Below, piece after piece: positions 21-8,459 of a stretch of DNA of 64,000 nucleotides. Made by a program: the position numbers and the translations under genes. Every line of letters starts with the position of its first letter. Position 1 is the first letter of the stretch. This DNA comes from Pinguiococcus pyrenoidosus (taxonomy: Eukaryota > Sar > Pinguiophyceae > Pinguiochrysidales > Pinguiochrysidaceae), in contig JAAMXY010001026.1 of assembly GCA_019677205.1 (NCBI GenBank), positions 1 through 64,000 of the forward strand. The letters are read 5' to 3'. The notes beneath the pieces were generated by a model, which saw only the letters and a list, made by a program, of their open reading frames with translations, was not told where the DNA came from and made no database searches.

Positions 21-1466
21 CTAGTGGGAATTGCAGATGGATTGTCGCACCTGCTTGACCAGCCGAAGATACTTGAGAATGTCGGCGTTGCCAGCGTGTG
101 GAAGTTCGGGCGGCAATCTCATGGCGTCCAGATGGTCACCGAGTTCGATTCCGTCCAATTCCTCTAAAGCCGGTGGAGGATTCTCGAACAGCAGCCTTGC
201 AAACTCCTTCTCGCCTTCATCGCCAATGGAGTTGCCCCAAAGGTTGAGCTCAGTGAGCTGCGGCACGCTCGGCAGTCCTCGCTCCGCCAGGGCTCTCGCG
301 CCTTCATCGCCAATGGAGTTGTCTCCAAGGTTCAGCTGAGTGAGCTGCGGCACGCTCGGCAGTCCTCGCTCCGCCAGGGCTGTCGCGCCTTCAGCGCCAA
401 TGTAGTTGCCTCCAAGGTCGAGCTGAGTGAGCTGCGGCACGCTCGGCAGTCCTCGCTCCGCCAGGGCTTTCGCGCCTTCATCGCCAATGGAGTTGTTGTA
501 AAGGTAGAGCTGAGTGAGCTGCGGCACGCTCGGCAGTCCTCGCTCCGCCAGGGCTTTCGCGCCTTCATCGCCAATGGAGTTCCAGGAAAGGCCGAGCTGA
601 GTGAGCTGCGGCACCCTCGGCAGTCCTCGCTCCGCCAGGGCTTTCGCGCCTTCATCGCCAATGAAGTTGCTGGAGAGGATGAGCTGAGTGAGCTGCGGCA
701 CGCTCGGCAGTCCCCGCTCCGCCAGGGCGTTCGCGCCTTCATCGCCAATGGAGTTGTAGGAAAGGTCGAGCTGAGTGAGCTGCGGCACGCGCGGCAGTCC
801 TCGCTCCGCCAGGGCTCTCGCGCCTTCATCGCCAATGGAGTTTGAGGAAAGCTTGAGCTGAGTGAGCTGCGGCACCTTCGGCAGTCCTCGCTCCGCCAGG
901 GCTCTCGCGCCTTCATCGCCAATGGAGTTTGAGGAAAGCTTGAGCTGAGTGAGCTGCGGCACCTTCGGCAGTCCTCGCTCCGCCAAGGCTTTCGCGCCTT
1001 CAGCGCCGATGGAGTTGCTCCAGAGGACGAGCGTTGTAAGCTTCGGAATGTTTGGCAGGCCCCGCTCTGAAAGTGTCTCAGCTCCTTGAGGTCCAATAGG
1101 GTTGTCGAAGAGGACCAGCACTGAAAGCTGGGGAACACTTCGCAGTCCTCTCTCCACCAAGAATTCCATTCCTTCTGGTCCGATGTTGTTGCTGCCAATT
1201 CGGAGCTCCGTCAACCATGGCACGCTTGCCAGTCCCTTCTCCACCAGAACTCTCACGCCAGCATCTCCCATGGCCACGCGTGGGGGGTAACGATTTTCGA
1301 GAAAGTCCGCAGAATACAGTCCATCTTCTTCAGCACCAGCCATAAGTCTTTTCACATCCAGGTCAAGCGTGGTGTCGTTGTTGTCATGGGTCCGTCGCAC
1401 ATATTTCCACCACTCCGCCTCTCCTCCACAGTCCTTAGGCCATTCCAGAGTGGTGTCCGCACTCAT
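21..1466 (-). CDS. Leucine-rich repeat protein with 12 near-identical 29-aa repeats
   Basis: Single-exon gene of 481 aa. The reading frame is open further upstream, but the first ATG is at 1466, so that start is used. After a short unassigned N-terminus (residues 1-65) come about twelve 29-residue repeats of the form GLPSVPQLTQLxLxxNSIGD, ending EGAxALAER. This is the ribonuclease-inhibitor (NLRC3-like) LRR pattern that forms a curved protein-binding scaffold. A 60-aa tail lacks repeats. No signal peptide or membrane segment is visible, so it is probably cytosolic or nuclear. The partner cannot be predicted. It is head-to-head with the JmjC gene and shares about 400 bp of upstream DNA. Confidence 0.8.
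   Translation of the reverse strand: MSADTTLEWPKDCGGEAEWWKYVRRTHDNNDTTLDLDVKRLMAGAEEDGLYSADFLENRYPPRVAMGDAGVRVLVEKGLASVPWLTELRIGSNNIGPEGMEFLVERGLRSVPQLSVLVLFDNPIGPQGAETLSERGLPNIPKLTTLVLWSNSIGAEGAKALAERGLPKVPQLTQLKLSSNSIGDEGARALAERGLPKVPQLTQLKLSSNSIGDEGARALAERGLPRVPQLTQLDLSYNSIGDEGANALAERGLPSVPQLTQLILSSNFIGDEGAKALAERGLPRVPQLTQLGLSWNSIGDEGAKALAERGLPSVPQLTQLYLYNNSIGDEGAKALAERGLPSVPQLTQLDLGGNYIGAEGATALAERGLPSVPQLTQLNLGDNSIGDEGARALAERGLPSVPQLTELNLWGNSIGDEGEKEFARLLFENPPPALEELDGIELGDHLDAMRLPPELPHAGNADILKYLRLVKQVRQSICNSH
190..1205 (-). repeat. 87-bp tandem coding repeats of the LRR array
   Basis: The LRR units are 87 bp long and highly similar at the DNA level. The two units around 840-1010 are nearly identical, including silent sites. 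The unit length is a multiple of three, which keeps a second reading frame open on the same strand and produces a spurious 288-codon ORF. Confidence 0.85.
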
Positions 1467-1867
1467 CTTTCTCTTCTGCTTTGACGTTGTTGTTTTGAGG
1501 CGTTTTCCGTTGAGAAAGTCATGTCTTTGCGCCCCTAAAACGTCAAGCACTCAGGCGCGCTCCACTGATTGGGCAGTACCGCACTTTTTACATTAATTAG
1601 TATGATCTGCCACTTCATTGGCTACATTCTTCATCCCATACTCTAAATGCGTTTAATAGGATAGTTTCCTAATTTTGATTTGTCTTTTCTGCTTCACAAC
1701 CATTGGACAACATCCCCGAAGGAAGATAGCGCGCGACACGGCTTTCTCCTTCCCGAGCCGGTGTCGCGACTTGTTCCCTCCAGGTATAGCCAGCAATCCA
1801 GCGGCGACAGAGTTTGCGGCAAACTGGCGCAACGTCAAAAGGCCCAAAGGCCTGGCTCGTGGACCGC
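1467..1867. promoter_or_regulatory. Divergent intergenic region, LRR / JmjC
   Basis: This 401-bp stretch separates two divergently transcribed genes, so it must hold both 5' UTRs and promoters. An AT-richer core lies near 1590-1690. No TATA box or other defined element can be called with confidence. Confidence 0.4.
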
Positions 1868-3175
1868 ATGGAAGACGCATCGGATCTGCCCAACGCAGTC
1901 GAAGCTTTGCTACGCATCCAGTACAAGCACAACCAGCACAGCCGCAATCTACAGGCGGATGCGGCCTTCTGGGCCTCCGTCTCTGTCCTCCACGGCTCCG
2001 AAGACAGCGAGATGCGTCGCCTGGACGGACGCAAGTTGACGCCGGAGGACTTTTCTCTTCGTTATGCAGACCGGCCTGCGCTTCTGACGGGCTTGGCAGA
2101 GGACTGGGCGGCAAAAGAGCGCTGGACGCTGGAAACGTTGCTCGAGAGCCACGGAGACACCGAGTTCCAGATCGCCGGCGGGCGCATCAGGCTGCGTTGG
2201 TATGTGAACTACGTGCGGAGAAGCAGCGCCGACTGGCCATTCTACATCTTTGAGGAGAATCTGCAGGAGGAGCGCGCCGCTCTCCTGGAAGACTATCGGG
2301 CTCCAGAGGTCTTTGGCAATGACCTGCTGTGCCTCCCGAAGGGCCAGCGCCCAGCGCGGAGATACTTCCTCATCGGACCGCGGGGGACCGGGACGCTGCT
2401 GCATCAAGACCCCATGATGACGTCTGCGTGGAACACGCTCGTCCATGGCCACAAACGGTGGTGCATGTTCCCGCCGGATGTCTCAGCGTCAGTGGTGGAC
2501 CCAAGCAGCCTGGGCAAGTGGGGCCGGGAGGAAGCCTCGATTGGGGAAGCCTCGATTGGGGAAGCCTCGGCCCGAGAAGGCGCGCAGCTGGTGCAGTGCG
2601 TCTTCGACGTGAAGAGCGCAGAACTAGAGATCGACTGGGCAGGGGTTGCGGACGCCATCTCGCGGCTGCAGTTGGATGGGGTACAGTGGGGCAGCACCGA
2701 GTTGGTGGACGTGGCGTTTGGCGTAAAGAAGCTTCAGGTGCTGGCGACCTTCGACGCTGACAAATGCAGCGAGGACGAAGTAGCTGAGGCGATTGCCAGC
2801 TTGAGTGAGTACGCCTTGTCCAGCGTGGACTTGGATCAGCGGGTGCCGGTCGCGAGCTATCCGCTGCCGCCGCCGGTGTCGCCCGCCTACTGGTTTCAAG
2901 ACGTCTACCCACGGCTCGTGGCGGACAAGGTGCCCATGCTGGAGCTGGTGCAGCAACCGGGCGAGACCATCTTCGTGCCACATGGCTGGTATCACGTGGT
3001 CCTGAACCTGGACTGGACGGTGGCGATCACCCACAACTTCATTTCGGAAGCCACCATCGGCGACGCTTTCGTCCGCTTGGAGCGCCAGGACGCGGCTCTT
3101 GCAGACGCGTGGTTTCGACAATTAGCGATCGAATGGCCAGAACAAGCCAAGCAGCTCAGAAGAAGAGAGAACTGA
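1868..3175 (+). CDS. JMJD6-like JmjC oxygenase with an inserted EF-1B guanine-exchange domain
   Basis: Single open frame of 435 aa from the first ATG at 1868. Residues about 165-205 (motifs GPRGTGTLLHQDP and SAWNTLVHGHKRW) carry the H-x-D iron ligands. Residues about 340-392 (FVPHGWYHVVLNL, AITHNF) carry the distal iron-binding histidine. Together they make a JMJD6-type Fe(II)/2-oxoglutarate fold, which normally hydroxylates lysine in proteins. In known JMJD6 proteins these halves are nearly adjacent. Here about 130 residues intervene, and residues about 240-325 match the eEF1B beta/delta guanine-nucleotide-exchange domain (FDVK, LDGVQWGSTELVDVAFGVKK, SSVDL). The linker contains a 15-bp tandem repeat. 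The usual C-terminal catalytic lysine of the exchange domain is not obvious. Both family assignments are strong; the joint function is inference. Confidence 0.85.
   Translation: MEDASDLPNAVEALLRIQYKHNQHSRNLQADAAFWASVSVLHGSEDSEMRRLDGRKLTPEDFSLRYADRPALLTGLAEDWAAKERWTLETLLESHGDTEFQIAGGRIRLRWYVNYVRRSSADWPFYIFEENLQEERAALLEDYRAPEVFGNDLLCLPKGQRPARRYFLIGPRGTGTLLHQDPMMTSAWNTLVHGHKRWCMFPPDVSASVVDPSSLGKWGREEASIGEASIGEASAREGAQLVQCVFDVKSAELEIDWAGVADAISRLQLDGVQWGSTELVDVAFGVKKLQVLATFDADKCSEDEVAEAIASLSEYALSSVDLDQRVPVASYPLPPPVSPAYWFQDVYPRLVADKVPMLELVQQPGETIFVPHGWYHVVLNLDWTVAITHNFISEATIGDAFVRLERQDAALADAWFRQLAIEWPEQAKQLRRREN
2529..2570 (+). repeat. 15-bp tandem repeat in the JmjC insert linker
   Basis: The unit gaagcctcgattggg occurs in about 2.7 copies and encodes repeated GEASI. 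It lies just before the EF-1B-like domain. Confidence 0.85.
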
Positions 3176-3341: not shown

Positions 3342-6294
3342 TCACTGGTACTCCTTCAGATGAGCCACGTGCCGTTTCACAATCTTCTCCTCCGCGTCCG
3401 TCGTTAAATAGTCTAGGAACTCCCGCAGCTCGCGGGCGCGCTCCTGCTTCTGCTGTCTCATCGCGTGCGCCTCCCTCACCCGGCTTCTCACCGCGGCGAT
3501 TCTTTGCTCCAGCACGGACTCCTCGGCCAGCATCTTCCTTCGTTCTCGACTGTCCCAGATGAGGCTCTGCGGATCCGAGGGGGTCGCACTCGGTCGTCCC
3601 GACGGCGATCTGCTGCCATCCGAGAAGTCGAGCCGCCCGAGATAACGAATGCTCTGCTGCGGGTCGGTCCTGAAGGAGGCGTTGCTGATGTCGGAGAGCA
3701 TCGTCGACACCTCGCGAGGATCCTTCAGTCCAAATCGTGGCTTCAGATACACAAGGGACGGGTCCGGTAGCGGCGTGTCAAGCTCGACTTCCAAGTCATC
3801 GACCGCTTTCCTGAGCTCTTGTAGGTCCGTCTCTTGGTCAGCCCGCTTGCTCGTCATCGCGGTGATGGACTCTTCCACGTCGGCAGCGACGTCTTTCGCC
3901 TGTCATTTTCCCCGGAAAACACACAGGGAAGGTGAGCTTCTCATTCCGGCAGATCCAGGTATCGGTCCAAGACAACGCAATGGCCTTGGGCAAAACGACG
4001 AAACCTACCGCTTCGACCCGCGTCAAGGCCTGATCCCGGGACTGCTGCGCCTTTGCTTGCATCCTCTTCGAGTTCTCCTCGAGGTCGCGCAGATTGGTCT
4101 CCAGCTGTGTGATGCCATTGTGCATCGAGTTCAGCTGCGTTTGGACGTTCCCGTGGCGATTCGTCAACTCGTTTTCCTTCGACTGGAGCTGCGCGTCGAT
4201 CCGTTCAAGCTTCCCTTCGATCTCCTCCAACTCAGATTTCCGGAAGGCTTTGGTGGACGCCACTTCCGCGATTTCGTGGTCTATTTGTCTCTTGCGATTC
4301 TCCATCTTTTCCAGAGTGCGCTGGACGGATGCCGAATCGATCTTGCATCGCTCGATCTGCGCCTCCAGGTCTAGCTGCTTCTTCTGCAGCTCCTTCTTCT
4401 CGTCCAGCAGACGCTGCCTCCGCGCTTCAGCGGTCCCCATCTTCTGCTTGAAACGCATCAACGTCATCGCTAGCTTTTGGCGCTCAGCGCTTTGCCCCGC
4501 GTGCCTCCCAAGAACTCGCCTCTCCATCACAAGCCGCCACTTTGCCCAGGCTCGCCGGCTGCATGCGTTGCTCAGCCTCTCAGCAACGCCTGCCGCAAAG
4601 GTGGCCAGCTGTGTGTGATGACGGCATACTCTCCGCCACGAAGCGAACGCATCAAAAAGCCGAGTCTGTGCCATCTTGAGTGCCAAGCGCCGGATCAGCC
4701 GCGCTGGCCAAGCCTTGGCCACTCCCCTTGCTGCGACGGAGCGCCAGTGCCGCAGACAGCGTTGCATCTTCAGCTTCACGTGAGGACTCTGCCGGGCGTG
4801 GGCCCCTCCCGCATGGAGTTGCAGAGCCGCGAACGCCGCGGCCTTGCATTTTCTCCGATAAAACCCCGGTGCCACGACGTTCAACATGTGCGCTGCGTGT
4901 CCACGCAGCTCCCGCCACTTGCGCCACCGGTCAAAATGGACGCGGAGGTGATTTTCGTACGTCCCGATGCCGCGGCTGCGGAGATCCCGAGACGTCGCGC
5001 AGAAGTTGCGCAATCTCTTGCAAGCGCGAAGCGCTCGTCGATCGTTGCACCACTGATCCAGCCCGGCAGCCTGAGCTCGTTCCGCCCTTGACGCTTTCGC
5101 AAACGCTGCGAATCGTCGGAGCACGACGGCGCCCCGATGACCCCACAGGAATCGCCTCGCTCGGACTTCCGCGCGCCAGCAGACGAAGACGCGCTGCTTT
5201 CGCATCGTGTTCTGGCGCGAGGAAAAGCCCCTCAGCATGGTTCGGCGCTGCTTGGCCAGGCGGCTCCTTGCCCTCCAACGGTTGAAGAGCGTCTTCCTTC
5301 TCAGGGCATCCGCCAGCAGACAGCCATGGTGATAAGCCTCTGGGGAGAGCACCCTGATGCGAGTGAACGCAACCCATGACGCAAAGGTCCGTCGCAAGCG
5401 CCTCCGAGATTCGATCACGTACTGCCCCGTCTTCAAGAACTGCTTCCTCTCCACCCACTGCGTCCATGCCTGAAAGGTGGCGCCCAAGATGGCCCTATCG
5501 TGCTTCAGCCTCCATGCTCTGAGCGCTTCACGCCGGTATGCGGAAGCATGCCACCGAGCGAAGATGCGTATTCTTCGGCGCTGCCCCAGCGTCCAGCAGA
5601 TGCGACCGACGAGCCTTCGTTCCACCTGCGCTTTGCACCAGCGCTTGAAGCACATGATCCGCAAGCGATCGTCCCGGAAGCGCTCGTGACGCTCCTGAAG
5701 CAACCTCAAGCCTCGCGATCTCTTGGTGGCCTCGCTAAGAAGGTGAAAAGCATGGCGGAGACCTCGGCAGCTCGTGGTGCGCGCTCGGCTTTCCGCCAGG
5801 CTCTCGAGATGGTCTCCCTTTTGCAAGTAGGAAAGCGACTTCAGCTGGAGCCGCAGCAGCGTACACTCGTCTTTCCGAAGCTTGGTGTCCGTCTCCAGAT
5901 CGCGATTCTCATCAAGCAGCTTCTTCTTCGCGGCGGCAAAGTTCTGCCGGCGCTTCGTCAGGGTCTCGATCTGCGCTTCGACCACGGCCCGCCGCTCTTC
6001 CCAGTGGGACCCAAGCTTCCGCTGCTGTTCATTCCTCCGCAGCAGAGCAGCATCTTCCTCGAGTGCATCCTTCCGCAGTTGCGCCTGGCGAGAGAGCTTC
6101 CCAAGCGTGTCCGACGCCAGAGCGCCGTTTGCCTCGTGTCGCCTCTGCGCCTCTTCCGCCCAAGCGTACAGCTGATCCAGCACATCGTGGGCGCCATGGA
6201 GCTCCTCCTCTCTTCGGCACCTCTCCACCTCCAGCGCCGAGACCTGCTTGCGCAGCGTCCGCACATCGTAGCCCATGTTAAGCCTGCGAGGCAT
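3342..6294 (-). CDS. SFI1-like centrin-binding repeat protein with coiled coils
   Basis: Two exons, 6294-4009 and 3899-3342, separated by a 109-nt intron (3900-4008, gtagg...acag, phase 0); about 946 aa. The first ATG in frame is 6294; a second at 6276 is possible. Residues 1-190 are coiled coil. The middle (about 200-600) has many Trp/Phe-containing basic repeats of the FxxW...W type (examples: FARWHASAYRREALRAW, FQAWTQW, FASWVAF), as in SFI1-type centrin-binding helices. Residues 610-760 and the C-terminus are coiled coil again. SFI1 family proteins form centrin-coated filaments at centrosomes and basal bodies. The gene is convergent with the JmjC gene and divergent from the AAA gene. Confidence 0.8.
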
Positions 6295-6844
6295 CAAATC
6301 CAAGCGACACAAGAAGTCCGGACCAGCCAGGGGTTACACGCTGTACTTTGGTGCAGAGATCTTCCGAGGATCAAAAAAACGAGTGGAGGAGGAGAAGAGC
6401 CAAGACACACCTCTCAAAGGGGCGTGGAGCAGGCGGCTGCTTCACCCGAGGTGAAGGTGGCGGCCGCACAAACTTCATCTTCTCAGGAAGTCGTGGGCCT
6501 CTCTTCCGCACGGGGGAACTGTCGCTACTGGAGCATGCCGAACTGGGCTAGCAGCGAATCCGAGCCATCTCTAGACTCAGGGACACTCCGCACGGAGCCT
6601 GCGAACGCAAAGCATGCGCCAATCAAGGGACTGTGGCGCGTTTACAGCGCAAATGGGTCAATTCTGCCGTTCAAATCCGTTATCTATCACCTGCGGGCGT
6701 ATGTCCAGAGACGTTGCATACATTTTATTTCCCACACTTTAGACTAGGCAATGATATGATTTCCTCCATCGAAATCCTCAGGATGCCGGAGCGCCCGCGC
6801 GCCTCGCCATCGCCCAGCGCCGCCTCGGGTGCCCATCTTCTGCT
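6295..6844. promoter_or_regulatory. Divergent intergenic region, SFI1-like / AAA protein
   Basis: This 550-bp stretch lies between two divergent genes. It includes an A-run at 6373-6378 and an AT-rich part around 6715-6760. No coding homology was seen in any frame, and no defined promoter motif can be called. Confidence 0.4.
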
Positions 6845-8459
6845 ATGGGTCAGGTGAATAGCGGCGACGCGGCGCGAGTGCTGCCGGAGCGGCACCTGAG
6901 CGACGTGTTCGACCTGTGCCGCCTGGACCAGGTGTCCGAAGTGGTGTTTCGGGACCATGGCATGCTGGAAGTGCTCACCACCACCGGCTTTCGCTTCGCC
7001 GCGCGGCTTATTGAGGCCATGCCCTCCTCGTTCCTCTTCGACACCCTGCTGCAGCACCACGTGAAGTTCCGGGACGGCCGGACGGCGCGAGTGGCCTGGG
7101 ACCGCTTGCTGCAGCTGACCCTGGTGGCCTTGACGCTCTACGGATACTGGAAGATCACGCGCCAGCTGCTGGGTTCGGTATCCGACGAGGATAATAACAA
7201 GGTGGTGCGTGACTCGGACCGGCGGAAGCGGCGACCGCGGAGCAAGCTCACGTGGGACAGCGTCGCGGGGGCGGACTCGGCCAGGAGGGAGCTCATGGAG
7301 GTCATCGAGTTCCTGCGCTCGCCGCAGCGCTTCCGCAGCATGGGCGCTCGCTGCCCCAAGGGCATCCTGCTGGCGGGCCCCCCTGGCTGCGGCAAGACGC
7401 TGCTCGCGAGGGCGGCGGCGTCGGAGGCTGGCGTGGACTTCATCGCGTGCTCCGCCTCGGACTTCGTCGAGCTCTACGTGGGCCGAGGCGCCGCGCGCAT
7501 CCGGGAGCTGTTCAAAGCGGCGGAGAGCCGCGCGCCCTGCATTCTGTTCTTCGATGAGATCGACGCGTTGGCCAAATCGCGGACGGGGGGGATTCACGGG
7601 AACGACGAGCGGGAGCAGACGCTGAACCAGCTCTTGACGCAGATGGACGGCTTCGATGCCTACGACGACGAGGACGAAGAAGCGGGGGATGGGAATGACG
7701 AAGATCGCGCCTTCCGTGATGCGCTCGGGGGACCGGACCAGCCGGTGGCCTCTTGGGGAGCGCCGCAGCCGGAGGCGGGCAAGCCGAAGCCTGCTATCAA
7801 GTCCAAGAGCGTCGTGGTCATCGCGGCGACGAATCGGCCGGAGATTTTGGATCGCGCTCTGCTGCGGCCGGGGAGATTCGATCGCCTCGTGAGAGTGGAG
7901 CTGCCCACCCCGGCGGGGCGGCTGCAAATTTTGCAAGTTCACGTCAAGAAGCGGGGGGTGCCTTTGGATGACATGGGCGCGCTGGAGCAGGTGGCTCGCG
8001 ACACTTCAGGCTTCAGCGGTGCAGAGCTTCAGAACATCATCAACGAAGCAACGATGCTCGGTAAGCGACGATGAGCGACGATGACCCTCTTGGTTGTCTT
8101 CTGGTGGACAGAAAGACGACGCAAACGACGGGCGACTGCTGACAGCCTTTCCTTCTTTGCCTTGTTCTCCCTCAGCTGTCCGGCACAACGCGAGGAGTGT
8201 TAGCAATGCCATCCTCTTCGAGGCCGTCGCGAAGGTGAAGGAGGCCCACAGAGTGACGGAGAGTCAATTTAGTGCGGGCTATGACAATGGCGACGTCGAT
8301 TCTGCTCCTGAGGCGCTGCGCAGCCTCTTCCAGCTAAGTCGGCTTCTTCACTCGGCTCAGGCTGGCAGCCCTCGTAGAGACGAGAATCGGTCAGACCGAG
8401 ACAATCACGAGCCGTCGACAGACTCTAGCGATGGACCGAAAGTTGAGGCCATTGACTAG
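6845..8459 (+). CDS. FtsH/paraplegin-type membrane AAA ATPase lacking the M41 protease domain
   Basis: Exons 6845-8060 and 8176-8459, with a 115-nt intron (gtaagc...ctcag, phase 1); 499 aa. One membrane segment lies at residues about 82-104. The AAA module shows Walker A GPPGCGKT (about 178-185), Walker B ILFFDEIDAL, a second-region-of-homology VIAATNRP...LLRPGRFD, and a lid ending SGAELQNIINEATML. An acidic, disordered insert of about 50 residues separates Walker B from the second region of homology. FtsH proteins normally continue with a zinc protease domain (HEAGH). Here the protein ends about 100 residues after the AAA lid with no HExxH, and the convergent neighbour starts 80 bp on. It resembles plant FtsHi pseudo-proteases in concept, but lacks the whole domain. 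Confidence 0.85.

Follow-up and report, generated by a model that had tools for sequence, protein, structure and literature searches.

The window analysed here is a stretch of 64,000 nucleotides from the pinguiophyte stramenopile Pinguiococcus pyrenoidosus, and the assembly searched alongside it comprises 23.7 Mb in 768 contigs. Within the window, an open frame on the + strand runs from the ATG at 1868 to the TGA at 3173-3175, giving 435 codons with no internal stops in the open-frame translation. The start at 1868 fits the alignment with a related protein, P0001, which opens at residue 15 of the window protein and residue 23 of P0001. The gene and its parts are as follows.

1868..3175, + strand: whole gene, JMJD6-type JmjC oxygenase with an inserted EF1_GNE domain; 435 aa plus TGA (Pfam, PDB sequence matches)
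1868..2494, + strand: JmjC/JMJD6 fold, N-terminal half, residues 1-209, ending just past betaIV (JMJD6 match 38-209)
2402..2410, + strand: HQD iron ligands H179 and D181, equivalent to JMJD6 H187/D189 (alignment to JMJD6)
2453..2455, + strand: K196, 2-oxoglutarate salt-bridge lysine, equivalent to JMJD6 K204 on betaIV (JMJD6 alignment; role, PMC6663879)
2495..2596, + strand: pre-insert linker, residues 210-243, of varying length among relatives (comparison with relatives)
2530..2569, + strand: 15-bp tandem repeat in the pre-insert linker, 2.7 copies, in frame (EASIG; repeat scan)
2597..2842, + strand: EF1_GNE insert, eEF1B guanine-exchange fold, residues 244-325 (Pfam, PDB sequence matches, alignment)
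2717..2719, + strand: F284, equivalent to yeast eEF1B-alpha F163, which fills the eEF1A domain-2 pocket (alignment; role, PMC10844748)
2837..2842, + strand: Q324-R325, invariant in 7/7 JMJD6-type fusions (alignment)
2843..2878, + strand: post-insert proline-rich linker, residues 326-337 (sequence)
2846..2848, + strand: P327 at the place of yeast eEF1B-alpha K205, no lysine (alignment; K205 role, PMC5806593)
2879..3172, + strand: JmjC/JMJD6 fold, C-terminal half, residues 338-435 (JMJD6 match 341-427)
2993..2995, + strand: H376, third iron ligand, equivalent to JMJD6 H273 (JMJD6 alignment)

Elsewhere in the window, a leucine-rich-repeat protein is encoded at 21-1550 (- strand) and includes an 87-bp tandem array at 208-1019 (9.3 copies, 91% matches). 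An 824-aa open frame at 3838-6312 (- strand) has no Pfam match at E <= 0.01 and is abundant in Arg/Trp-containing repeats, which by eye we take to resemble Sfi1-type repeats. An AAA ATPase at 6845-8074 (+ strand; Pfam AAA, 1.4e-41) looks FtsH-like by eye and is apparently incomplete in this frame. Searches for tRNAs and Rfam families found none in the window.

The sequence-only reading had placed the two halves of a JMJD6-like fold on either side of an insert, and this is borne out. Pfam scores of the window protein are 65.2 bits for JmjC (cut-off 24) and 61.2 bits for Cupin_8 (residues 68-392, above its cut-off). The best match in the PDB sequence search is JMJD6 (E 3.9e-51), in two stretches, 38-209 and 341-427, with JMJD5 far behind (5.3e-7). 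The residue numbers first given also hold, as HQD contains H179/D181 and GWYHVV contains H376, which together make up the HxD...H iron triad in the JMJD6 alignment. T388 corresponds to JMJD6 T285 when counted from H273/H376 in the alignment, T285 being a residue with a role of its own in JMJD6. The JMJD6 residues Y131, T184, N197 and K204, whose roles concern 2-oxoglutarate (PMC6663879), correspond to Y126, T176, N189 and K196. The best reading of the flanks is thus a predicted JMJD6-type Fe(II)/2-oxoglutarate protein hydroxylase in which the set of catalytic residues is present.

Between these halves lies the exchange domain. EF1_GNE (PF00736) covers residues 245-321 at 50.5 bits (Pfam cut-off 20.8; E 2.3e-13), and the insert searched alone gives E 6.8e-15. 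In the PDB sequence search, human eEF1B (1b64) matches residues 244-320 at E 1.4e-10, followed by eEF1D (1e-9) and yeast eEF1B-alpha (1f60; 1.3e-6); no other eEF1B region was detected in the window protein by Pfam at E <= 1. With the insert matching EF1_GNE and the flanks matching JmjC/Cupin_8, all above their cut-offs, the domain-in-domain arrangement that had been proposed stands at the level of sequence. The insert shares with the exchange domains of eEF1B-alpha, beta and delta the DVK start, the DGVQWGS and FGVKKLQ segments and the F163-equivalent, but it differs from them in being internal rather than C-terminal and in the absence of the exchange lysine. JMJD6 K204 sits on betaIV (PMC6663879). 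As the insert starts after betaIV and stops before the PGET strand, its predicted position is the betaIV-betaV loop, a loop that, in JmjC hydroxylases and demethylases, frequently has a part in binding the substrate (PMC5862942). The window protein is thus like JMJD6, a lysyl C5-hydroxylase, in both fold halves, in HxD...H and in the Lys/Asn/Thr/Tyr residues for 2-oxoglutarate, and unlike it in a betaIV-betaV loop about 110 residues larger, which holds EF1_GNE.

An open frame through the insert could conceal an intron, a gene-model error or an assembly artefact, and 48 of the 108 GT-AG pairings between 2431-2600 and 2801-2960, counted irrespective of splice strength, would keep the frame. This explanation is very unlikely, to the point of being nearly negligible, and was rejected, because the EF1_GNE domain occurs in six other proteins (30-37% identical where measured, in P0001, P0002 and P0013) and the insert has a coding-like pattern of GC by codon position (0.63/0.38/0.78, with 0.64/0.45/0.76 and 0.66/0.41/0.77 in the flanks). 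In addition, the donors GTAAG, GTGAG, GTATG and GTAC are absent from 2431-2600. A splice variant without the insert may nevertheless occur.

The protein search and the profile search each returned at least 17 proteins at E <= 0.001 among about 8000 scored candidates (8000, 7997 and 8000 in three protein searches), so that the family may be larger. Six of the 17 profile-search proteins (P0001, P0002, P0003, P0013, P0018 and P0019) join an EF1_GNE region to the JmjC C-terminal half, and one, P0020, represents the N-terminal part of a member of this family. The other ten are JMJD6-like without PF00736 in the precomputed column, a weak test since that column also misses P0002, P0013, P0018 and P0019. 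The insert is accompanied by both complete JmjC halves in P0001 and P0002; P0018 starts in the betaIV stretch, P0013 and P0019 start after the HxD stretch, and P0003 is without the HxD stretch, probably owing to a gene-model error. The label of P0013 is COSAG02, and Picozoa sp. COSAG02 is described as a single-cell genome (PMC10268365). P0018 is named 'translation elongation factor EF-1beta' by its source. By Pfam, EF1_GNE scores 34.7 bits in P0001 and 34.6 in P0003, and falls below the cut-off of 20.8 in P0002 (14.8) and P0013 (19.2). A profile of P0002, P0013, P0018 and P0019 matches an eEF1B profile, which itself contains the window insert, at E 5.7e-9 (probability 96%). Identity to the window protein in the N half, EF1_GNE and C half is 53%, 37% and 58% for P0001, and 48%, 30% and 55% for P0002.

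The spacing from HxD to PGExxFVP separates the fusions from ordinary relatives. Both motifs were present in 16 of 28 proteins; P0018 was dropped, its HxD match lying inside the C-half, and where several HxD matches occurred the one fitting the JmjC motif was taken. The spacing is 185 in the window protein, 193 in P0001 and 175 in P0002, and 66-78 in ten other proteins. The JMJD6-like proteins P0017 and P0022 have enlarged spacings of 149 and 125 and no listed EF1_GNE; their betaIV-betaV loop may host other inserts. The assembly contains a separate, ordinary JMJD6-like gene at C475 (spacing 74), which makes the fusion an extra paralogue. In a 21-row tree, from which P0003, P0012, P0013, P0016, P0018, P0019 and P0020 were omitted, the three complete fusions cluster (94/98) apart from the C475 gene and stand beside P0006, P0011, P0015 and P0023 (98/98); JMJD4 and JMJD7 are absent from this tree. 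A conserved acidic C-terminal tail, SDGERSDDEPxDP, is found in P0002, P0013, P0018 and P0019, and P0001 and P0003 carry another acidic C-terminal tail; the window protein has neither.

Viral and prokaryotic relatives were sought with two patterns each, a weak test, and none of the 16 viral and 30 genome-contig pattern matches was confirmed. The JmjC-EF1_GNE architecture was not found in an open-access literature search, most subscription journals being outside its reach. Taken from the sequences, it appears to be a new domain architecture within JmjC hydroxylases, conserved among divergent protist sequences that fall into three branches.

Several residues of the inserted domain bear on its function. 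Domain 2 of eEF1A has a hydrophobic pocket that is occupied by F163 of eEF1B-alpha; with F163A, the Kd is about 6.5-fold higher (PMC10844748). K205 of eEF1B-alpha enters the Mg site, and its mutation is lethal (PMC5806593). The alignment used for comparison comprised seven JMJD6-type and two METTL13-like fusion domains (see below) together with hand-entered human and yeast eEF1B sequences; P0020, which is N-terminal and lacks the insert region, was excluded from the nine. Phe occupies the F163 column in all nine fusion domains, which do not amount to nine independent lineages since P0013/P0018/P0019 and P0001/P0003 form close groups. The K205 column reads P/A/A/A/P/P/P/D/D, with Lys in none of the nine, and is less certain in the METTL13-like tails owing to long gaps ahead of the C-terminal columns. 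The suspected loss of the catalytic exchange lysine is thus confirmed, residue 327 at the yeast K205 place being Pro, and the suggestion that the domain binds without exchanging agrees with the retained Phe and missing Lys. As the K205 place is without Lys in 9/9, the window protein is not classed as an exchange factor, and the best reading of the insert is a putative exchange-dead docking domain.

The domain might still exchange if R325 replaced K205, making the protein an oxygen- or 2-oxoglutarate-responsive eEF1A exchange factor. The Q-R pair is invariant in 7/7 JMJD6-type fusions just ahead of the K205 place, and a stand-alone EF1_GNE gene was not found in the assembly by Pfam or by hand-entered human and yeast eEF1B queries. 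Yet R325 aligns two residues before K205, the place itself holds no Lys and the K205 mutation is lethal (PMC5806593). Both METTL13-like tails lack Q324-R325 and have Met in the R325 column, and an ordinary eEF1B may be hidden by introns or an incomplete assembly. Exchange activity is therefore improbable.

A second alternative to docking sees the insert as a filler with a structural or dimerising role, its EF1_GNE fold having decayed and lost contact with eEF1A. In keeping with this, the insert is less conserved (30-37% in P0001, P0002 and P0013) than the JmjC halves (48-58%), the P0002 domain reaches only 14.8 bits, and the loop is also enlarged in P0017 and P0022, which have no listed PF00736. 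F284, moreover, could be retained for the fold, as it is one of only four columns invariant in 9/9 (D256, F284, L289 and V320, among window residues 240-330). We consider a filler unlikely, because the residue kept in every domain is the Phe of the eEF1A pocket, and because a like domain is carried by a second enzyme from a family with eEF1A modifiers.

This second enzyme came from a whole-assembly Pfam search for EF1_GNE, which matches exon by exon and returned two places only, the window gene and contig C738. The gene on C738 is as follows.

L011:1156-2541 on C738, - strand: METTL13-like methyltransferase with an EF1_GNE-like C-terminal tail; two exons joined, 442 aa

Across 80% of its length, the L011 protein shows 100% identity to EukProt P0025, labelled Pinguiococcus pyrenoidosus. 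Its alignment with the hand-entered human METTL13 N-domain covers 186 columns at 34% identity (E 6e-27), and it matches PDB 2pxx, which we take to be eEF1A-KMT4, at 5e-4. With METTL13 as query, C738 scores 38.1 bits and is surpassed by six further loci of the assembly (58.5-105.5 bits), so that the C738 gene is called METTL13-like and not METTL13. The EF1_GNE Pfam scores of its tail are borderline (19.3-20.8 bits, cut-off 20.8); hhalign gives a match for the tail with a probability of 83% (E 9.3e-6). With hand-entered human and yeast eEF1B as queries, only the window gene was returned at E <= 10, and C738 was not. In the alignment, the L011 tail keeps the Phe and lacks the exchange Lys. A relative from the pinguiophyte Phaeomonas parva, P0026, is 43% identical and has an EF1_GNE-like tail in the same region. 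L011 thus resembles the window protein in its domain and in both of these residues, and differs in being another enzyme, in carrying the domain C-terminally rather than as an insert and in its borderline scores. METTL12 is a relative of METTL13 and eEF1A-KMT4. METTL13 and eEF1A-KMT4 methylate eEF1A, and METTL12 methylates citrate synthase (PMC10238732). The strongest circumstantial argument for eEF1A targeting is that similar docking domains, neither of them with the Lys, occur on two unrelated modifying enzymes.

The partner presumed in this argument is present in the organism. The assembly encodes eEF1A (on C211; 723 bits; 77% identical to hand-entered human eEF1A1), and the possibility that eEF1A was lost in favour of EFL, leaving the domain orphaned, was rejected on this ground. 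The algal eEF1A keeps human K36, K55, K79 and K318, and does not keep K165. eEF1B-gamma is also encoded. The failure to find a stand-alone eEF1B exchange-domain gene with Pfam EF1_GNE or the hand-entered human and yeast queries may reflect an assembly gap, introns or real loss, as genome searches match per exon and intron-split domains can escape them.

eEF1A had been proposed as the partner of the insert, and the F163-equivalent in all nine domains, together with the other EF1_GNE-like match on a METTL13-like methyltransferase, makes it a likely one. Overall, we lean towards the window protein being an eEF1A-guided hydroxylase with an exchange-dead eEF1B domain in its betaIV-betaV loop, in which eEF1A binding, the substrate and the residue type are all putative. 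The inserted domain would clamp eEF1A free of aminoacyl-tRNA, with F284 placed in the domain-2 pocket, and this docking would hold the JmjC active site over eEF1A, near the G domain. The JmjC site would then hydroxylate an eEF1A residue. A lysine within the G domain or close to it is the most likely candidate, this side of eEF1A being the one that the eEF1B C-terminus reaches. The chain of an ordinary eEF1B ends right after the exchange lysine. In the window protein it continues past this place into the linker, which could hinder docking. The F163 pocket of eEF1A also receives the 3' terminal adenosine of aminoacyl-tRNA (PMC10844748), suggesting that docking should require eEF1A without aminoacyl-tRNA; the delivery of tRNA-bound eEF1A, which the sequence-only reading had allowed, is accordingly disfavoured.

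Docking on eEF1A might also serve to reach a neighbour, such as an eEF1-complex subunit, a ribosomal protein or a nearby tRNA. The linkers flanking the insert on both sides provide reach, eEF1B-gamma is available in the assembly, and the substrates of related JmjC hydroxylases include translation components (eRF1 for JMJD4, DRG1/2 for JMJD7, and those of the ribosomal oxygenases; PMC11400632). A neighbouring target is nonetheless unlikely, as the assembly's other fusion, the METTL13-like one, indicates eEF1A itself.

For eEF1A as the target, Efm4/eEF1A-KMT2 (METTL10) offers a precedent: this enzyme modifies eEF1A and places a Phe in the pocket of eEF1B-alpha F163. Yeast Efm4 F212 has been modelled as binding like F163, and eEF1B-alpha inhibits Efm4 (PMC10844748). 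Unlike the whole exchange domain on an oxygenase seen here, Efm4 uses a nine-residue beta-hairpin on a methyltransferase. A literature search listed no report of eEF1A hydroxylation, and we know of no earlier eEF1A hydroxylase. Likewise, no translation-factor domain fused to JMJD4 or JMJD7 is known to us. Both are similar to the window protein in being JmjC lysyl hydroxylases, and they act on a translation factor (eRF1) and on GTP-binding proteins (DRG1/2; PMC11400632).

On a wider view, some microbial eukaryotes may have made eEF1A modifiers by joining an exchange-dead eEF1B domain to catalytic domains that are unrelated to each other, a JmjC oxygenase in one case and a seven-beta-strand methyltransferase in the other, with the window gene as the eEF1A hydroxylase; this extension is plausible but falls a little short of probable. 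Substrates of JmjC hydroxylases are hard to assign, and the window protein seems to name its own. If the proposal is true, it would reveal a new kind of mark on eEF1A and tie elongation in protists to an input from oxygen and 2-oxoglutarate, and an exchange domain with the Phe kept and the Lys absent would serve as a rule for spotting further eEF1A modifiers.
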